From an uncultured Granulosicoccus sp. (GTDB taxonomy: Bacteria > Pseudomonadota > Gammaproteobacteria > Granulosicoccales > Granulosicoccaceae): a stretch of DNA of 64,000 bases. Positions 52,642 to 60,613 of the stretch are shown one piece after another. Made by a program: the position numbers and the translations under genes. The stretch is taken from the NCBI GenBank assembly GCA_947495035.1, contig CANLXI010000017.1:62001-126000 (forward strand). The letters run 5' to 3'. Under the pieces are notes generated by a model. It was not told where the DNA came from, searched no databases, and worked only from the letters and a program-made list of their open reading frames with translations. Numbering within the stretch: the first letter of the stretch is position 1; each line of letters begins with the position of its first letter.

Positions 52642-53289
52642 TCAGTCGCGAAACAGGATGTCGGCGGCTTCGACCACGATTGCGGCGACCTCTGCCAGTC
52701 GTTTGTTGGTACTCATCGCCTGTGAACGCAAGGCCTTGTAGGCTTCCTCTTCGCTCATGCCACGTTGCTTCATCAAGAGTTTCTTCGCCTTGTCCAGAGT
52801 CTTGCGTTCTTCGAGTTCGTTGCGCGTCTTCTCAAGCTCATCGGCAATGCCGCGAAACTGCTGGAAACGCTGGATGGCTGCATCCAGAATCGGGCGCACG
52901 CGCTTGCGACTGAGTCCGTCCACCACATAAGCGCTGACGCCTGCGCGCGTGGCACGGGCTATGGTGGCGCCATGATCATCTTGCGAGAACATGACGATGG
53001 GCCGTGGCGTGATGCTCTGAACGCTTCTGAGGCTGTCAAGCGTGTCGCGACCCGGAGACTCCAGGTCGACAATGACCACATCCGGATTGCAATCCTGAAC
53101 ACGGATCAGTACATCGTCCTGATCCGACACAAATCCGATGACCTCACAGCTTACCTCCGCCAGTGCGTCGGCGATGGCATTGCGGCGCTCGCTGCTGTCA
53201 TCAACCAGTAGTACGCGCAGCCGGCGATGATGACTGGTGTCATCATCCTCCAGCGCGTAGCTGTCATAGATGGTGTCCTTGCGTGTCAT
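52642..53289 (-). CDS. nasT: ANTAR-domain antitermination regulator NasT
   Basis: A 215-residue regulator. A receiver-like domain comes first (LRVLLVDDSSERRNAIADAL, then DVVIVDLESPGRD), followed by a coiled-coil linker (DELEKTRNELEERKTL) and the C-terminal ANTAR RNA-binding domain (DKAKKLLMKQRGMSEEEAY and KALRSQAMSTNKRLAEVA, residues about 150-210). ANTAR proteins bind pairs of hairpins with hexaloops and prevent leader termination. NasT is normally held inactive by the nitrate sensor NasS. It lies 13 bp after the nrtC-like gene, whose C-terminal half is NasS/NrtA-like, and its RNA target is the leader at 58233-58398. Confidence 0.92.
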   Translation of the reverse strand: MTRKDTIYDSYALEDDDTSHHRRLRVLLVDDSSERRNAIADALAEVSCEVIGFVSDQDDVLIRVQDCNPDVVIVDLESPGRDTLDSLRSVQSITPRPIVMFSQDDHGATIARATRAGVSAYVVDGLSRKRVRPILDAAIQRFQQFRGIADELEKTRNELEERKTLDKAKKLLMKQRGMSEEEAYKALRSQAMSTNKRLAEVAAIVVEAADILFRD

Positions 53290-53302: not shown

Positions 53303-55555
53303 TCATGGCAGACGCTCTTTCAAGGGCGCATGGTCACCGTGGGTACCTGTCAGGCCGGCGTTGACTGCCGTGTCGACCTCAGACAAAGCACCTTGCAATC
53401 CAGCATCAGGCCAGCGCCGAATCGGAAAACCGCTGACATAGCCTTCGATGTCGTCAGCGGTGAATCGTCGTCCGTCAATGAAACGGTCAGCTCCCATCGC
53501 AATGATATCGTTCCCGGCTTGCAGTTCCCAGCCGGATTCATGTTCGCCTTCATTCTTTTCGTCCACCAGGGGGCAGGGGATGCCCAGTGCATTGGCAGCT
53601 GCCCGGTATTCGTCGGGTCGGTAGACCGCGTTCACCGCTCGCTGGATATCAGCCGTACTGTCCAGCTCTCCCCAACGCAGCATCTGGGAGTAGAACCAGA
53701 GCGCGTGAGAGCGCCAGGGCATATTGGCTGCATAGCGGTGGAATACATTGTAATCAGGTGCTGCCTGTTTCTCGCCACCCGAACTCGTTTGCAACGTGCC
53801 CGACAAGGACGTCTCCAACACATCCACAGGCACGTTGACATAGCGTCCCTGGCTGAGAATTTCGCAGGCTTCGCTGCGGTTCTCGGGAGACTCCAGCCAG
53901 GCACAGGCTTGCAGCAAGGATTTGATCACGGCGTGATGGGTATTGGGATTGCATTCCGCCCAATAACGCGTAACCGCGAAGACTTTCTCGGGGTGGTTGT
54001 TCCAGATATCGTGCGTTGTCGCAACGATTCTACCCAGACCATCGCTGACGGCAAGTGTATTCCAGGGTTCTCCCACACAGCAGCCGGCAATCAGCCCGAC
54101 ACGCAGATAGTGACCAACCTGTTGGGGTGGCACGACAATCAGCCTCACATCACTATCCGGATCGATACCGGCGTCCGCCATCCAGTATCGCAGCAGATAG
54201 TTGTGTGATGATTGTGCAAATACCACAGCGAAGCTCAGTGGCGGCCGCCCGGCGTTGCGATCCTGATCGACGACCATCTTCAATGCGCGTGCAGCACCGG
54301 CGGCCGTGTCCAGGTCTTGCTGCCCGGTGGCCATCATGCGTCCGTAGAGTTCGCGCGAGAGGGTGATGGCGTTGCCGTTGAGGTCAAGGCTCAGCGAGGT
54401 CACCATGGCTTGCGTACGTTGGGAGTCGAAGGCCGCTGCCAGTGGAATGGCTGCCAGCATCTGCGCACCATCGAGCATGCCGGTGCTGACCTTGTCGCGA
54501 ATATTTGCCCAGGAGCTCTCACGCGAGAGTTCGATCTGTAGCCCGTGTTGATTGAAAAAGCCCTTCTCGGCAGCGATTACCAGTGGCGCACAATCGGTCA
54601 GGGGAACGAAGCCGAGGGTCAGCTGGTTCTTCTCCAGTCGGCTCCCGGCGTTGGCGGTACGCGCACTGCCGATGGGGACAATGTTGCTCGTGTGCGTATC
54701 CGATGTCGCGGTGTGTTCCTCGCTATCGGCAGCCGCTGCAGGGGGCGGCGATGCCACGACAGTGGAACTGGTCTCACTTTGATGCCGCTCATGCAGGAAC
54801 TTCACGACCTCGGCTCGATAGTGGTTGAAGGCGGGGTCTTCTGCCAGAGCCAGTCGATCACGTGGCCGTTCGAGGTTGATGTCGAGAATTTCGCCAATGG
54901 TGGCAGATGGGCCATTGCTCATCATCACGATACGGTCAGAGAGCAGAACGGCTTCATCGACATCGTGCGTGATCATCACGACGGTATTGTTCAGGCGCGC
55001 CTGAATCTCCATCAATGAATCCTGCATATGGGTACGTGTGAGTGAATCCAGCGCGCCGAAGGGTTCGTCCATCAACAGCACCTTGGGCTCCATGGCCAAT
55101 GCCCGGGCAATACCCACTCTCTGCTTCATGCCGCCGGATATCTCATCAGGCTTGCGATCCAGTGCATGCGACATGTTCACCAGTTCCAGGTTGTGGCGTG
55201 TCCATTCGTCACGTTGAGCCTTGGTCTTGGTGCGTTTGAATACCTGATCGACGGCGAGGCGTACATTGTCGTAGGTACTCAGCCAAGGCAGTAGTGAATG
55301 GTTCTGGAAGACCACAGCACGGTCCGGGCCCGGCTCATCGACTTCCTGGTTCTCCAGCAGTACGCCGCCTTCAGTGGCCTTGAGCAATCCCGCAACGATA
55401 TTCAGAACCGTGGATTTACCGCAGCCCGAGTGGCCGATCAGCGAGATGAACTCACCTTGCTGCACCTTGAGATCCACGCTCTGGAGTACGTTCAGCGGAC
55501 CCTTGTCGGTCTTGAACGTCATGCCGACATGATCGATATGGAGGTAATTTTTCAT
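53303..55555 (-). CDS. nrtC: Nitrate ABC transporter ATPase fused to NasS/NrtA-like binding domain
   Basis: A 750-residue two-domain protein. Residues about 1-260 are an ABC ATPase: LIGHSGCGKSTVLNIVAGLL (Walker A), VVFQNHSLLPWLSTYDNVRL, ISGGMKQRVGIARALAM (signature) and VLLMDEPFGALDSLTR (Walker B), with MITHDVDEAVLL. After a Ser/Ala/Glu-rich linker, residues about 310-750 form an NrtA/NasS-like domain (LGFVPLTDCAPLVIAAEKGF, SSHNYLLRYWMADAGI, CCVGEPWNTLAVSDG). Cyanobacterial NrtC has the same architecture, with a C-terminal domain that inhibits uptake. Its location directly before nasT makes it a candidate NasS partner as well. nrtB lies 9 bp upstream. Confidence 0.92.
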   Translation of the reverse strand: MKNYLHIDHVGMTFKTDKGPLNVLQSVDLKVQQGEFISLIGHSGCGKSTVLNIVAGLLKATEGGVLLENQEVDEPGPDRAVVFQNHSLLPWLSTYDNVRLAVDQVFKRTKTKAQRDEWTRHNLELVNMSHALDRKPDEISGGMKQRVGIARALAMEPKVLLMDEPFGALDSLTRTHMQDSLMEIQARLNNTVVMITHDVDEAVLLSDRIVMMSNGPSATIGEILDINLERPRDRLALAEDPAFNHYRAEVVKFLHERHQSETSSTVVASPPPAAAADSEEHTATSDTHTSNIVPIGSARTANAGSRLEKNQLTLGFVPLTDCAPLVIAAEKGFFNQHGLQIELSRESSWANIRDKVSTGMLDGAQMLAAIPLAAAFDSQRTQAMVTSLSLDLNGNAITLSRELYGRMMATGQQDLDTAAGAARALKMVVDQDRNAGRPPLSFAVVFAQSSHNYLLRYWMADAGIDPDSDVRLIVVPPQQVGHYLRVGLIAGCCVGEPWNTLAVSDGLGRIVATTHDIWNNHPEKVFAVTRYWAECNPNTHHAVIKSLLQACAWLESPENRSEACEILSQGRYVNVPVDVLETSLSGTLQTSSGGEKQAAPDYNVFHRYAANMPWRSHALWFYSQMLRWGELDSTADIQRAVNAVYRPDEYRAAANALGIPCPLVDEKNEGEHESGWELQAGNDIIAMGADRFIDGRRFTADDIEGYVSGFPIRRWPDAGLQGALSEVDTAVNAGLTGTHGDHAPLKERLP

Positions 55556-55564
55556 GATATGTGC

Positions 55565-56596
55565 TCAGCGCAGTACTGCGTTCTTGTCCCAGGAAATGAA
55601 TCGCTGCAGTTGCAGCATCGCGCGATCCAGCAGAAATCCGATGAAGCCGATCACCAGCACGGCGACCATGATGCGCGCCAGAGAATTGGAGCTGCCATTC
55701 TGGAATTCATCCCAGACGAACTTGCCCAGACCGGGGTTCTGCGCCAGCATTTCAGCGGCAATCAGTACCATCCAGCCGATGCTGAGCGACAGGCGCATTC
55801 CCGTGAACATCATGGGCAATGCGGAAGGCAGGATTATCTTCAGGGTCTTGTTGAACCAGTTGAGGCGCAGCACACGGCTGACGTTCAACAGGTCCTTGCT
55901 GACAGCGGAGACGCCCACGGCTGTATTGATGATGGTTGGCCAGAGGCAGCACAGGGTTACCGTGATGGCCGAGGTCAGAAAGGATTTCGAGAACCAGGGG
56001 TCGTCGGACACGTACACGGCCGAGACGACCATGGTGACCAGTGGCAGCCAGGCAAGCGGCGACACGGGCTTGAACAGCTGGATGATCGGGTTGAACGCCT
56101 GGTACAGAGTCTGGCTCATGCCGATGATGATGCCCAGAGGAATGGCAATGAGCGTGGCGAAGAAGAAACCTGTCATCACTGTGACAAGGCTGGTGAAAAT
56201 CTGGTCGATGATGGTCGCCGGGCCGGTGTACTGCCGAGATTGCATGCGTTCGATGCGATCAGCAGGTTGACCATCAGCCCTGGCTTTTGCAACGCGTTCT
56301 TCCAGGCGTTCGTGAAACTGTATTTCCTTGTCCCTTTCGGCCAGATGTTCCTGAAACAGGGTGATTGCCTGGTTTCCGACCTGAGAGGGGCCGGGCAATT
56401 CTCCCAGCGAAGTCTGTACACGGCTCGCACCGACGCTCCACAGCGTCAGAAATACCAGCAGGGCCATGACAGGTACAAAGATGCTGCGACTGACCGAGCG
56501 CATGCTTCCCGCCAGGCGATCGCTGGCCAGGGTGTCGAGAATGCGTGTCAGAGTGGCATTATCGAAGGTCTTGTGGTTCTGTAGATAACCGGACAT
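55565..56596 (-). CDS. nrtB: Nitrate/nitrite ABC transporter permease
   Basis: A 343-residue permease of the NrtB/SsuC/TauC group. It starts with a cytoplasmic stretch and the helix SIFVPVMALLVFLTLWSVGA, has a periplasmic loop with acidic helices, and then a compact five-helix core (PLGIIIGMSQTLYQAFNPII, PVSPLAWLPLVTMVV, LPSALPMMFTGMRLSLSIGW). The EAA loop reads SKDLLNVSRVLRLNWFNKTLK. It is longer than sulfonate permeases because of the N-terminal insert typical of NrtB. nrtA precedes it by 176 bp, in which there is a stable hairpin. Confidence 0.93.
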   Translation of the reverse strand: MSGYLQNHKTFDNATLTRILDTLASDRLAGSMRSVSRSIFVPVMALLVFLTLWSVGASRVQTSLGELPGPSQVGNQAITLFQEHLAERDKEIQFHERLEERVAKARADGQPADRIERMQSRQYTGPATIIDQIFTSLVTVMTGFFFATLIAIPLGIIIGMSQTLYQAFNPIIQLFKPVSPLAWLPLVTMVVSAVYVSDDPWFSKSFLTSAITVTLCCLWPTIINTAVGVSAVSKDLLNVSRVLRLNWFNKTLKIILPSALPMMFTGMRLSLSIGWMVLIAAEMLAQNPGLGKFVWDEFQNGSSNSLARIMVAVLVIGFIGFLLDRAMLQLQRFISWDKNAVLR

Positions 56597-56649
56597 GAAT
56601 CGTTCCTCGTATCGTTAAACGGACATCGTCCGGGAAATCAGGGCTTGCA

Positions 56650-56682
56650 CCCATCCCCGGCGTATCGGCGTCCGGGGATGGG
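56650..56682. other. Intercistronic hairpin between nrtA and nrtB
   Basis: CCCATCCCCGG pairs perfectly with CCGGGGATGGG (11 bp) around an 11-base loop, 90 bp after the nrtA stop and 54 bp before the nrtB start. It has no T-run. Such stems often protect the 3' end of a binding-protein message so that it accumulates above the permease; that role is inferred. Confidence 0.7.
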
Positions 56683-56772
56683 GCATGGCATGAATTACTT
56701 GGGAGCAGGAACAAGGCAATGCTGCGGGTCCCTGCTACTGCTCGGATCAGTTGGCAGAACTCGAGCGCATGC

Positions 56773-58197
56773 TCAGAGCATGTCGTCCTTCAGACCGATC
56801 GGGAACGATGACAGGTAGCTGTTCGGCTTTGTGCCATCGAAAGTGATGCCGTCGATGAATTCCGTCTGCGGTGGGCGATAACCGGTTTCGCTATCGAAGT
56901 TGGGGAATTCGTCAGCCGTCATGTAGCCTTCGTCGATCAGTTCCTGAGCTGCCGTGGTGTAGATGTCCGGACGGTAGACCGACTTTGCAATCTCGTCATA
57001 CCAGCTGTCGTCCTTGGGCTCTGAAATCTGCCCCCAGCGACGCATCTGCGTCAGGTACCAGACGGCATCCGAGTAGTAGGGGTAGGTTGCGTTGTAGCGA
57101 AAGAACACGTTGAAGTCGGGGATCTCGCGCTTGTCGCCTTTTTCGAATTCGAAGGTACCGGTCATCGAGTTGGCGATGACATCGTAGTCCGCACCCACAT
57201 AGTTCGGTTGAGACAGGATTTTCACCGCTTCCGGGCGGTTGGCATTGTCATTCTCGTCCAGCCACTTGGCAGCACGCAGCATGGCCTTGACGATGCGGAT
57301 CGTGGTGTTGGGATTCTCTTCGGTGAAAGCCTGCGTCATGCCGAAGACTTTCTCCGGATTGTCCTTCCAGATCTGGTAGTCGGTGATGACCGGTACGCCG
57401 ATGTTCTTGAACACGGCTTGCTGGTTCCATGGCTCACCCACACAGTAGCCGTGGATGGTACCGGCCTCGAGCGTTGCCGGCATCTGGGGAGGCGGTGTCA
57501 CAGAGAGCAGCGCATCGGCATCGATGGTGCCGTCGATGTCGCCCTTGTGAGGTGCATAGTAGCCGGGGTGAATGCCACCGGCAGCCAGCCAGTAGCGCAG
57601 TTCATAGTTATGCGTGGAGACGGGGAATACCATGCCCATCTTGAATGGCTTGCCATCGGCCTTGAATTCATCGACGACCGGCTTCAGGTAATCCGCCTTG
57701 ATGGGATGCTGAGGTCGTCCATCCTCCATCTTTGGGATGTTCGGTTTCATCATCTCCCAGACCTCGTTGGAGACCGTGATGCCGTTGCCATTCAGGTCCA
57801 TGGAGAATGGCGTGACGATATGCGCTTCGGTGCCATAGCCGATGGTGGCTGCCAGCGGCTGGCCGGCGAGCATGTGCGCACCATCGAGCTGACCGTCGAT
57901 GACGCCGTCGAGCAGCACCTTCCAGTTCGCCTGGGCCTCGAGCGTCACATACAGACCTTCGTCTTCGAAGTAGCCTTTTTCGTAAGCGATGGCCAGCGGG
58001 GCCATGTCGGTCAGCTTGATGAAACCGAACTTCAGATCTTCCTTTTCAGGGTATCCGACTTCGGCAACAGCATTGGAGATACCGGTACTCAGAATTGCGG
58101 CGAGCCCGAGGCTCAGCAGCGTTCGCTTCGGCGCAGAAGCCTGAGTGTGGGTGCGGTTGCCGGATCGGCAAACCACATTGAACGTCATTGCTCTCAT
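56773..58197 (-). CDS. nrtA: Nitrate/nitrite ABC transporter substrate-binding protein
   Basis: A 474-residue periplasmic binding protein. The N-terminus has [20 protein letters not shown], a signal peptide cleaved around residue 45. The mature protein matches NrtA throughout: [74 protein letters not shown], and [17 protein letters not shown]. These carry the nitrate-binding Trp, His, Lys and Gly residues of the family. The signal peptide separates it from the cytosolic sensor NasS. AGGACA lies just upstream of the ATG. Expression is controlled by the sigma-54 promoter, ANTAR hairpins and terminator upstream. Confidence 0.94.
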
Positions 58198-58232: not shown

Positions 58233-58277
58233 AAAAAAAAACGTCACGCCCCCGGCCGCGCGAACGCGGTGGTGACG
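58233..58277 (-). terminator. Attenuator in the nrtA leader
   Basis: On the minus strand CGTCAC-CA-CCGCG-TTCG-CGCGG-CCGGGGGC-GTGACG forms a strong GC-rich stem (58242-58277) followed at once by nine T (58233-58241), 36 nt before the nrtA start. This is a textbook intrinsic terminator placed inside a leader, which means transcription must be allowed past it for nrtABC to be made. Confidence 0.9.
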
Positions 58278-58398
58278 AGACGCCGTTGTCTCCGGTGGTT
58301 GCCCCTGTGGAGCTACCGTTATTCTTGTCGTATGGCAGGTGATGAACCGGTAACCCGCCGTTGGGTCACTGGCAGAGCTTCACCTGCGTATGCCATAC
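58277..58398 (-). promoter_or_regulatory. Two-hairpin ANTAR-binding leader RNA
   Basis: P1 (58347-58372) is CCAGTGACCC-AACGGC-GGGTTACCGG, a 10-bp stem with one mismatch and one wobble; P2 (58277-58292) is GAGAC-AACGGC-GTCTC. Both loops are the same hexamer, with A at position 1 and G at position 4, the feature conserved in known ANTAR RNA targets. P2 abuts the terminator and shares one base with it. P1 is enclosed by a further stem, AGGTGA (58380-58385) with TCACCT (58337-58342), possibly extended by GTATGGC/GCCATAC. nasT in the same operon encodes the expected ligand. Confidence 0.88.
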
Positions 58399-58404
58399 CA
58401 GATC

Positions 58405-58419
58405 GCAATCGATGTGCCA
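58405..58419 (-). promoter_or_regulatory. Sigma-54 (RpoN) promoter of the nrt operon
   Basis: TGGCAC-ATCGA-TTGC on the minus strand matches the -24/-12 consensus with the exact GG-to-GC spacing. The predicted start point, about 12 nt beyond the GC, falls near 58393, at the beginning of the hairpin leader. Nitrogen-controlled nitrate assimilation operons commonly use RpoN with NtrC. Confidence 0.85.
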
Positions 58420-58713
58420 GCCTGTTGACTGAATGTGATGGTTGAACTGTTCTTGCCTATTAACCTTTGATTTCAATGGAAATATTCGTGCTGTCAGCGT
58501 CCTGACAATGCTTAGTCAGGCATCGCCGTGCAGAGGTGAAAGTCGCGAATTCAAGGTTGAACGCACAGCGGAAGTGCGGTGAATGCACCACGAATGCACC
58601 GAAGGTGGGGCGGGTGTGGTGGTCATGTTCGGCTAACCGTTATCCACAAATGCTATGGATGGGCATGTGGAAGACAGGCGCTTGAACTGCCAGACAGCGC
58701 CTGGTGGCGCGCA
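58420..58713. other. Upstream region of the nrt promoter
   Basis: No gene is seen. It holds the NtrC-type dyad (58563-58577), tandem AATGCACCACG-type repeats at 58581-58600 and separates the nrt operon from the 3' end of the acyltransferase gene on the same strand. Confidence 0.5.
58563..58577. promoter_or_regulatory. NtrC-type enhancer dyad
   Basis: GCAC-AGCGGAA-GTGC fits the GCAC-N7-GTGC core of NtrC sites and lies about 145 bp upstream of the sigma-54 -24 element, a usual enhancer distance. Further GCACC/GGTG repeats follow at 58584-58607 and may hold a second, poorer site. Confidence 0.6.
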
Positions 58714-59817
58714 CTAATGACGTGACAGTGCTCGCGCCAACCGTATCAGCACGAGAAGTGGGCGGCTTTTCCAGAAATCCAGCTCCACCGTGTGGCAGGT
58801 TTGCCTGGCATAGGTGGACTTGTAAGGGTAGTCACCCTTGAGAAGGTCGATGTAAATCGCGCCATCGACAATCGCCTGATCAATCGTGTGCATCATCAGC
58901 AGATGCCCGAGGGACAGATGCTGGTACCGTGGATCGAAGCCGGTCTGAAAGAAACTGAGCGTACCATTGCAGAGAAAGGCGTACTCGACGCCGACGATGG
59001 TGCCATCGATTCTGAGGGTGAGCAGTTTCAGCTCATCCAGCTCCTGCGCCTTTTCCATTACGGCCCGATGAAAGCGTCGGTAATTGTCCGACTGGAAGGA
59101 GTCGGAGCCGCCCTTGCTGGAGAATCGTTCGTGATGCAACCGCATCAGCGCTTCGAAGGCTTCATCGATTTCGCAAGCGCTGCGGCAGAAGGAAAACACG
59201 GCATGCCCCGCCTTGTGCAATCTTGTCCGTCGCTGCTTGCGCTGCTTTCTGGCGTTGCGGCTCAGATTGCCTTCGAACTCTTCCACCGTTTCCGGCAAGA
59301 CATCGACCAGACGTTGCTGTGTGCTTTCCAGTGGTCTCTGCCAGCGTCTTGCCTGCGCACATTTGCGCAGTGTGCTGACCAGCAGCGAGTCCTGGCCGAG
59401 ATCGCTGAGGCGAATGCGTGTGATATCGGAGGCTTCAAACAGATAGTCACAGATGGCCCTGGTTGCCACGGACTCATGGTCGGGGTGAAACAGGACACAC
59501 AGATCGTCCGGTGAGGTATCGCCGCCGCTGCCGATGAACTGAACCGTTCTGGCCTTGATGAGTTTCAGTTTGCGCGTCGTCGACTGGTACAGTGGCGCTA
59601 TGCCGATGACAGTGCCGTGCAGGCGCGCGACCAGAATGTACAAGGAGGCACTCTGCCCGTAATGTTGCCACCACAGCCGGTTCCAGTAGCCGCTGTTGAA
59701 CAGACCGGCCTTGATGCACAGGGTATGCAGTATGTCCCAGTCGGCAAGCAGGGCATCGAATTCTGCGTCAGTGGTGATAACTTGTACGCTGATATTCGTT
59801 GAAGGGTCGGCATCCAT
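58714..59817 (-). CDS. GNAT/BcsL (CelD)-type acyltransferase
   Basis: A 367-residue protein of the CelD/BcsL family (double GNAT fold, BioF2-like acetyltransferase). It has the N-terminal AEFDALLADWDILHT, GSGGDTSPDDLCVLFHPDHE, a Lys/Arg-rich helical stretch (SRNARKQRKQRRTRLHKAG), and the C-terminal GVEYAFLCNGTLSFFQTGFD with LSLGHLLMMHTIDQAI and IDLLKGDYPYKSTYARQ. These enzymes modify polysaccharides or are involved in cellulose and envelope biosynthesis. The ATG at 59817 interlocks with the divergent YdcF start; the frame is open further upstream, inside ydcF, without family-like sequence. Confidence 0.85.
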   Translation of the reverse strand: MDADPSTNISVQVITTDAEFDALLADWDILHTLCIKAGLFNSGYWNRLWWQHYGQSASLYILVARLHGTVIGIAPLYQSTTRKLKLIKARTVQFIGSGGDTSPDDLCVLFHPDHESVATRAICDYLFEASDITRIRLSDLGQDSLLVSTLRKCAQARRWQRPLESTQQRLVDVLPETVEEFEGNLSRNARKQRKQRRTRLHKAGHAVFSFCRSACEIDEAFEALMRLHHERFSSKGGSDSFQSDNYRRFHRAVMEKAQELDELKLLTLRIDGTIVGVEYAFLCNGTLSFFQTGFDPRYQHLSLGHLLMMHTIDQAIVDGAIYIDLLKGDYPYKSTYARQTCHTVELDFWKSRPLLVLIRLARALSRH

Positions 59818-60613
59818 GCCTGTGTTGCTCGATTGGTTCCTGCAGCCCCTGGGTCTTGTATTCACCGTGCTGCTCATCGGCCTGCTGTTGATCCTGAGAT
59901 CGGGAGCTGTCTCCCCGGTGCAGACATCCGCCCTGGTCGGCAGCACGATGCTGCTGTGGCTGTGCAGCGCGCCCCTGACAGCCAATTCCATGGTGAAGTG
60001 GATGGAGAGGCCGCGATATACCGTGCCCGACGTATGTTTCGGTGGCGGCGAAGAGGGCCCGTCAACGGTGTCGTTGCCCATCGTGGTACTGGGCGCCGAT
60101 CTTGATGCCTATGTGGAGAGTGACAACCCCTATCGCGTGTTATCGCGAGAGTCCCTGATGCGCACACTGCATGCCGCCGACCTGGATTCGGGGAACACTG
60201 CGTATTATCTGATGGGTGGTGGCCAGACATCTCGCAAGCTGAGCGATTATATGGCGGCGGTACTTGCGGAACAGGGCATTCCCGAGTCACGCATCGTGCG
60301 TGACCGGCTGAGTCTGTCCACCCGTGGCAATGCCGAACGCCTGCGTGAGTTGCTGGCGGCGGACACGTCCGCCCCCATTACGCTGATCACATCCGCCCTG
60401 CATATGAACAGAGCCGTGCATGTGTTTGACGATCTCGGATTCATGGTCTGTCCCAGTGCCTCTGCATCCCTGTACTCGGTATCGGCCGGTTGGGTGGGTT
60501 TGCTGCCTTACATAACCGGGTTGAGCAAGACAACTCTGGTAATCAGAGAGTGGCTGGCGACTCTCAAGTTCCGTGCCGTCGGTGTTATCAGTGACCTGCG
60601 GGCTCGTTATTGA
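59816..60613 (+). CDS. YdcF/ElyC-family membrane protein (DUF218)
   Basis: A 265-residue protein with two N-terminal membrane helices (FLQPLGLVFTVLLIGLLLIL and ALVGSTMLLWLCSAPLTA) followed by the DUF218 domain: LPIVVLGADLD, YYLMGGGQTSRKLSDYMAAV, QGIPESRIVRDRLSLSTRGN and ITLITSALHMNRAVHVFDDL. ElyC and YdcF relatives take part in envelope or polysaccharide metabolism, possibly handling lipid-linked intermediates. Gly-Gly-Gly-x-Thr and the Asn-Ala-Glu segment match the conserved site. Its start codon shares the CATG with the divergent acyltransferase. Confidence 0.88.
   Translation: MPVLLDWFLQPLGLVFTVLLIGLLLILRSGAVSPVQTSALVGSTMLLWLCSAPLTANSMVKWMERPRYTVPDVCFGGGEEGPSTVSLPIVVLGADLDAYVESDNPYRVLSRESLMRTLHAADLDSGNTAYYLMGGGQTSRKLSDYMAAVLAEQGIPESRIVRDRLSLSTRGNAERLRELLAADTSAPITLITSALHMNRAVHVFDDLGFMVCPSASASLYSVSAGWVGLLPYITGLSKTTLVIREWLATLKFRAVGVISDLRARY

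Follow-up and report, generated by a model that had tools for sequence, protein, structure and literature searches.

The region upstream of nrtA is the control region of a nitrate-uptake operon, nrtA-nrtB-nrtC-nasT, in the genome (7.16 Mb) of an uncultured Granulosicoccus, and lies on the minus strand of the analysed 64-kb stretch of DNA (hereafter the window), between a GNAT-family gene (58714-60081) and the start of nrtA at 58197. In the direction of transcription, an NtrC-like dyad, a sigma-54 site, hairpin P1, a spacer hairpin, hairpin P2, and a terminator that closes with nine T are followed by nrtA, nrtB, nrtC, and nasT (Table 1). The explanation that we favor, with a probability of roughly 0.8, is that the operon would be driven by an NtrC-activated sigma-54 promoter, attenuated by a terminator under the control of NasT, supplied with a candidate nitrate sensor in the C-terminal domain of NrtC, and positively autoregulated. 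A sequence-only reading of the same stretch had listed the promoter elements, the two hairpins, the terminator, and a nasT gene at the end of the operon, all of which were recovered on the minus strand where it had placed them. Its prediction of dual control, by NtrC and sigma-54 on the one hand and by a NasT attenuator on the other, is well supported by the conservation of promoter, dyad, hairpins, and terminator, by the presence of ntrC and rpoN, and by the finding of a sole ANTAR protein in the genome.

Table 1. Features of the nrtA control region and of the operon behind it (window coordinates)
Feature	Position	Strand	Sequence or product	Remark
NtrC-like dyad	58563..58577	-	GCACTTCCGCTGTGC (GCAC-N7-GTGC)	158 nt upstream of the sigma-54 element
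Sigma-54 promoter (-24/-12)	58405..58419	-	TGGCACATCGATTGC (TGGCAC-N5-TTGC)	conserved in homologous leaders
Basal stem with P1 at its tip	58335..58387	-	GCAGGTGA (58380-58387) with TCACCTGC (58335-58342)	minimum-energy fold
Distal ANTAR hairpin P1	58350..58369	-	GTGACCC-AACGGC-GGGTTAC	
Spacer hairpin	58297..58317	-	GGTAGCTCCACAGGGGCAACC	triloop, no A1/G4 loop
ANTAR hairpin P2	58277..58292	-	GAGAC-AACGGC-GTCTC	covariation in 4/5 pairs
Intrinsic terminator stem	58240..58284	-	GGCGTC with GACGTT	GC-rich; includes the 3' arm and last loop bases of P2
Terminator T run	58233..58241	-	nine T	
nrtA	56773..58197	-	nitrate-binding protein (NMT1_2, PF13379)	apparent signal peptide
nrtB	55565..56596	-	nitrate ABC transporter permease	
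nrtC	53303..55555	-	nitrate ABC ATPase with fused C-terminal NasS-like (NMT1_2) domain	750 aa
nasT	52642..53289	-	receiver-ANTAR protein	last gene, 13 nt past nrtC

Homologous leaders and the predicted NtrC/sigma-54 promoter

For comparison, relatives of NrtC and NasT were collected, their gene order was mapped, and the regions upstream of nrtA were scanned, yielding 59 distinct leaders in which a P2-like hairpin is followed by a T run about 45-50 nt downstream; one of these (L125) was later dropped as doubtful, leaving 58. Because an A1/G4 hairpin before a T run was the criterion of selection, the invariance of those letters is no evidence; the register of the terminator played no part in the choice. 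The elements of the window leader are conserved across the 58 other nrtA leaders, and its minimum-energy fold has a z-score of about -3 to -4. A covariance model trained on 45 leaders, all from outside the Granulosicoccus genus, matches the window at 58237-58292 with 21.6 bits (E about 0.003 for the 64-kb search), the runner-up reaching 9.5 bits (E 2.1), so that the nrtA leader is the sole good match in 64 kb. When 150 of 873 first-look candidates from the genome were scored for other NasT targets, the model found the nrtA leader only.

On the window alone, the sigma-54 string occurs once against 0.23 expected, and the dyad string three times against 2.37 expected, which is not significant. 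While such counts are suggestive at most, both sites are made solid by their conservation in homologous leaders: 47 of the 59 leaders have the sigma-54 pattern upstream of P2, compared with 1.8% in shuffled sequence, and upstream of this promoter the dyad is found in exact form in 11/47 leaders (0.6% by chance) and with at most one mismatch in 36/47 (9% by chance). The distance between dyad and promoter is identical in four Granulosicoccus genomes, and the genome encodes both NtrC (695 bits, cut-off 559) and sigma-54 (rpoN). The arrangement thus has what is expected of an NtrC-activated sigma-54 promoter, namely a -24/-12 consensus, a dyad 100-200 nt upstream, and the genes for the activator and the sigma factor. 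Judging from the conserved sites and from these two genes, nitrogen limitation would lead NtrC to act at the upstream dyad and activate the promoter, with the RNA expected to start near 58393.

Two further observations concern the surroundings of the operon. The gap between nrtA and nrtB (56597-56772, 176 nt) contains a strong GC-rich hairpin, CCCATCCCCGG...CCGGGGATGGG, without a T run, perhaps an mRNA-stabilizing or processing element. In addition, nirB and the genes for a molybdopterin nitrate reductase follow a GAF-domain gene at a separate locus (L154 4629-10984, G000:C22), where no ANTAR leader was detected ahead of the nirB-nasA operon; NasT seems to control uptake only.

NasT and the C-terminal domain of NrtC

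NasT, the only ANTAR protein of the genome, consists of a receiver and an ANTAR domain, as in known NasS-NasT systems. In NasT receivers, including that of the window, the conserved lysine is mostly replaced by D (55/67), which would fit control through a partner better than control through phosphorylation. The NasS and NasT proteins of Paracoccus associate as a 2:2 complex, and nitrate dissociates it (PMC3795266; PMC5424462). No separate cytoplasmic NasS was found in the Granulosicoccus genome, in which the strong members of the nitrate-binding family are NrtA (325 bits) and the C-terminal domain of NrtC (280 bits), the next scoring 39; both this absence and the sensor-like domain fused to NrtC escaped the sequence-only reading. 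Because no standalone NasS was found, the NrtC domain is the most likely nitrate sensor, and the balance tips slightly towards a cytoplasmic NasS-like domain that would hold NasT until nitrate arrives and then release it. About evenly poised is the further proposal that the transporter itself is the sensor, the NasS-like domains of NrtC holding NasT at the membrane and nitrate freeing NasT to antiterminate its own operon, which would amount to an ANTAR analogue of MalK-MalT control. With two NrtC subunits, a transporter would present two NasS-like domains, comparable to the 2:2 complex of Paracoccus. Since nasT is itself subject to the attenuator, the loop would be positively autoregulated.

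Each of 20 related genomes encodes a single NrtA and a single regulatory domain, whether fused or standalone; four of the 20 show an additional partial match. Many relatives have the gene order nasT, leader, nrtA, nrtB, nrtD, and a gene for a standalone NasS-like protein, the latter mostly without a visible signal peptide; others have the NasS-like domain joined to the ATPase, and in Granulosicoccus nasT has, in addition, moved to the end of the operon. In the tree, the fused domains form one group (100/99) placed within a moderately supported group (90/93) together with the standalone proteins and with alphaproteobacterial NasS (from Sinorhizobium, Paracoccus, Methylocystis, and Shinella plasmids), the gene for which comes immediately after nasT. 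An origin of the fused NrtC independent of that in cyanobacteria, suggested by the free tree, was not supported by the AU test, in which trees placing the fused domain with cyanobacterial NrtC/CmpC (p 0.60) or with NrtA (p 0.31) are not rejected. The W, H, and K residues at the putative nitrate site, whose roles we presume from the NrtA structure, are retained by every fused and every standalone member.

The main rival of a sensory role is a role in transport control. The promoter and attenuator would then work as described, with the C-terminal domain of NrtC regulating transport only and NasT being otherwise controlled or constitutive. Cyanobacterial NrtC and CmpC (PDB 8WM7, 9U9Z, 9UAK) combine, in the same way, an ATPase with an NrtA-like cytoplasmic C-terminal regulatory domain and have no known ANTAR link; in cyanobacterial NrtC, this domain is required for the inhibition of uptake by ammonium, and a nitrate-sensing role has been put forward for it (PMC6603209); the tree, as noted, does not reject a joint clade. 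However, the fused domain shares 48-56% identity with the standalone proteins that follow nrtD in the same operons, compared with 38-39% for the cyanobacterial domains; genomes with the fused gene nearly always have an ANTAR protein (11 of 13 further genomes checked have one) and no other NasS-like protein; and receivers lacking the conserved lysine argue against control of NasT by phosphorylation. A role confined to transport is thus unlikely, although both roles could coexist in one domain. The cyanobacterial systems have an NrtC-NrtD pair and transport proposed to be regulated with PII, whereas the operon in the window has one ATPase and an ANTAR protein.

Other proteins of the family were noted in passing. 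At two loci (L044, L045), binding proteins encoded beside nasT resemble the NrtC C-terminal domain (51-55%) more than NrtA and may represent one ancestral protein of both roles; that of L045 has a visible signal peptide. Partial matches to the NrtC domain (33-37% over residues 150-372) occur in other ORFs of about 500-630 aa (G024:C44:28760-29413, G149, G153, G159).

Among characterized regulators, a close likeness is shared with the NasS-NasT systems of Paracoccus denitrificans, Azotobacter vinelandii, and Bradyrhizobium, which have a NasT-type ANTAR protein, a nitrate-binding partner of the NrtA family, and leader hairpins upstream of nitrate genes (PMC3795266; PMC5424462). In these bacteria, nasS is a separate gene, whereas the window encodes a NasS-like domain joined to the transporter ATPase; likewise, nasTS of Paracoccus lies outside the attenuated operon, whereas nasT of the window lies inside its own. 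The NasR protein and nasF leader of Klebsiella oxytoca also share ANTAR-mediated nitrate induction, a two-hairpin A1/G4 leader with a terminator, and Ntr control (PMC7496416; PMC5424462), but NasR carries its own NIT sensor domain, in contrast to the receiver-type NasT of the window. A search of the open-access literature found no described NasS-NrtC fusion.

Hairpins and terminator of the leader

Judging by homology, NasT would bind hairpins with an A1/G4 hexaloop. P2 has such a loop, with A at position 1, G at position 4, and a closing C:G pair, and P1 provides a second hairpin upstream of it. The two had been taken in the sequence-only reading as the usual ANTAR pair, which holds insofar as both are present with the loop AACGGC; the linker between them, however, which contains the spacer hairpin, is 57 nt long, far beyond the range tested for ANTAR targets. 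In eut leaders, natural P1-P2 linkers measure 5-12 nt, and lengthening to 14 nt impairs induction (PMC3369931). The EutV two-hairpin antiterminator (Ramesh 2012) shares with the window the A1/G4 hexaloops and a P2 that overlaps and excludes the terminator, but differs in these short linkers and in being activated by phosphorylation; the wide spacing sets the window apart from the nasF leader of K. oxytoca as well. The 57-nt linker is therefore a real deviation from known ANTAR targets, and one that the earlier reading missed.

It is doubtful, all the same, that P2 works by itself and the distal hairpin is a stabilizing structure at the 5' end with no relation to it, or that the spacer hairpin is the true partner of P2. 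Besides the length of the linker, this alternative has in its favor that the spacer hairpin lies where a partner is canonically found (loops about 20 nt apart), occupying the site where 24 of the 58 leaders carry a proximal ANTAR hairpin; a C:G-closed A1/G4 hairpin at this distance (16-27 nt between loops) is expected by chance in 0.5%. Yet in all four Granulosicoccus genomes it is the distal hairpin only that has retained A1 and G4 together with a closing C:G pair, while the hairpin at the canonical place is without this signature. Across the family, too, C:G-closed A1/G4 hairpins farther upstream (28-105 nt from P2) are enriched, being present in 34/58 leaders against 2.7% by chance. Proximal and distal hairpins occur together in 16/58 leaders, and, by the strict criterion, another count of 16/58 leaders lack any hexaloop hairpin upstream of P2. 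The basal stem, at the tip of which P1 is presented, is largely conserved in sequence within the genus. P1 may either act across the folded spacer or serve as an accessory site.

Related hairpin arrangements were met elsewhere. In Thiodiazotropha and relatives (L070, L072, L074, L077, L075, L081, L071), four A1/G4 hexaloop hairpins precede nrtA, forming two tandem pairs before one terminator. The Rfam narK RNA (RF03032) has consensus hexaloops AACGGC and AAAGAC on two hairpins, one of which is matched by P1 of the window; membership of the window leader in this family was rejected, since the window scores 13.8 and 13.4 bits, below the gathering score of 43.2. With two A1/G4 hexaloop hairpins and a short linker in its consensus, the narK RNA, which is not labeled as an ANTAR or NasT target, looks like one. 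A NasT hairpin has been predicted in the narK leader of Bradyrhizobium (PMC6759348), and nothing describing the narK RNA as an ANTAR target was found in the literature searched.

The relationship between P2 and the terminator follows from the register in which the latter folds. In the minimum-energy register of the window, GGCGTC, comprising the loop end and 3' arm of P2, is paired to GACGTT, and next to this CGTC is paired to GGCG, giving -24.7 kcal/mol with the P2 arm and -14.0 without it; over the leaders, the mean energies are -31.4 and -14.3 kcal/mol, respectively. In 58/58 leaders, the folded terminator takes in three or more of the four bases of the P2 arm together with the last two loop bases. 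Covariation, tested on an alignment of 52 leaders with 500 shuffles, shows both alternatives: in P2, 89.6% of cells are paired and 53 carry compensatory double changes, a number reached by none of the shuffles, and in the terminator base formed with the P2 arm, 91.3% are paired, with 64 compensatory cells and double changes in seven of eight pairs (again 0/500 shuffles). The register CGTCAC/GTGACG, on which the sequence-only reading had relied, is 42.6% paired, shows no covariation signal, is not the minimum-energy fold, and was rejected. Its statement that P2 and terminator overlap by one base is true in that register only, and the variant exclusion mechanism that it had envisaged from this overlap falls away, given that the 3' arm of P2 lies inside the terminator stem throughout and both structures covary. 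That the two coexist, NasT acting, for example, by steric block of terminator folding from an adjacent hairpin, is highly improbable: a short stem (GUCAC/GUGAC) can form beside P2 in the sequence of the window alone, at -21.1 kcal/mol for the pair, but the stem that includes the P2 arm has the lower energy, is universal among the leaders, and covaries, whereas the short register shows no covariation.

Because the terminator takes in the 3' arm and last loop bases of P2, the two structures, by this comparison, exclude one another in the standard ANTAR manner, as described for other targets (PMC3369931; PMC7496416). By default, the transcript would stop at the intrinsic terminator, 110-160 nt downstream; NasT, by keeping P2 closed, would withhold its 3' arm from the terminator stem, allowing the polymerase to read through.

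Significance for nitrate regulation

In Klebsiella, nitrate genes are known to be under both Ntr and ANTAR control (PMC5424462), and the regulatory logic of the leader is thus not new; the fused sensor candidate, the position of nasT, and the spaced hairpins are less ordinary. No description of this promoter and attenuator logic in this marine genus was found in the literature searched, and the leader provides a clean, well-conserved example of it there. The gene-fusion series, from a separate NasS after nrtD to a NasS-like domain on the ATPase and the shift of nasT into the operon, argues clearly and testably that a transporter can incorporate a nitrate sensor for RNA-level control. If true, uptake activity and induction would be tied in one protein, and a defined domain would be at hand for the study of NasS-NasT signaling.
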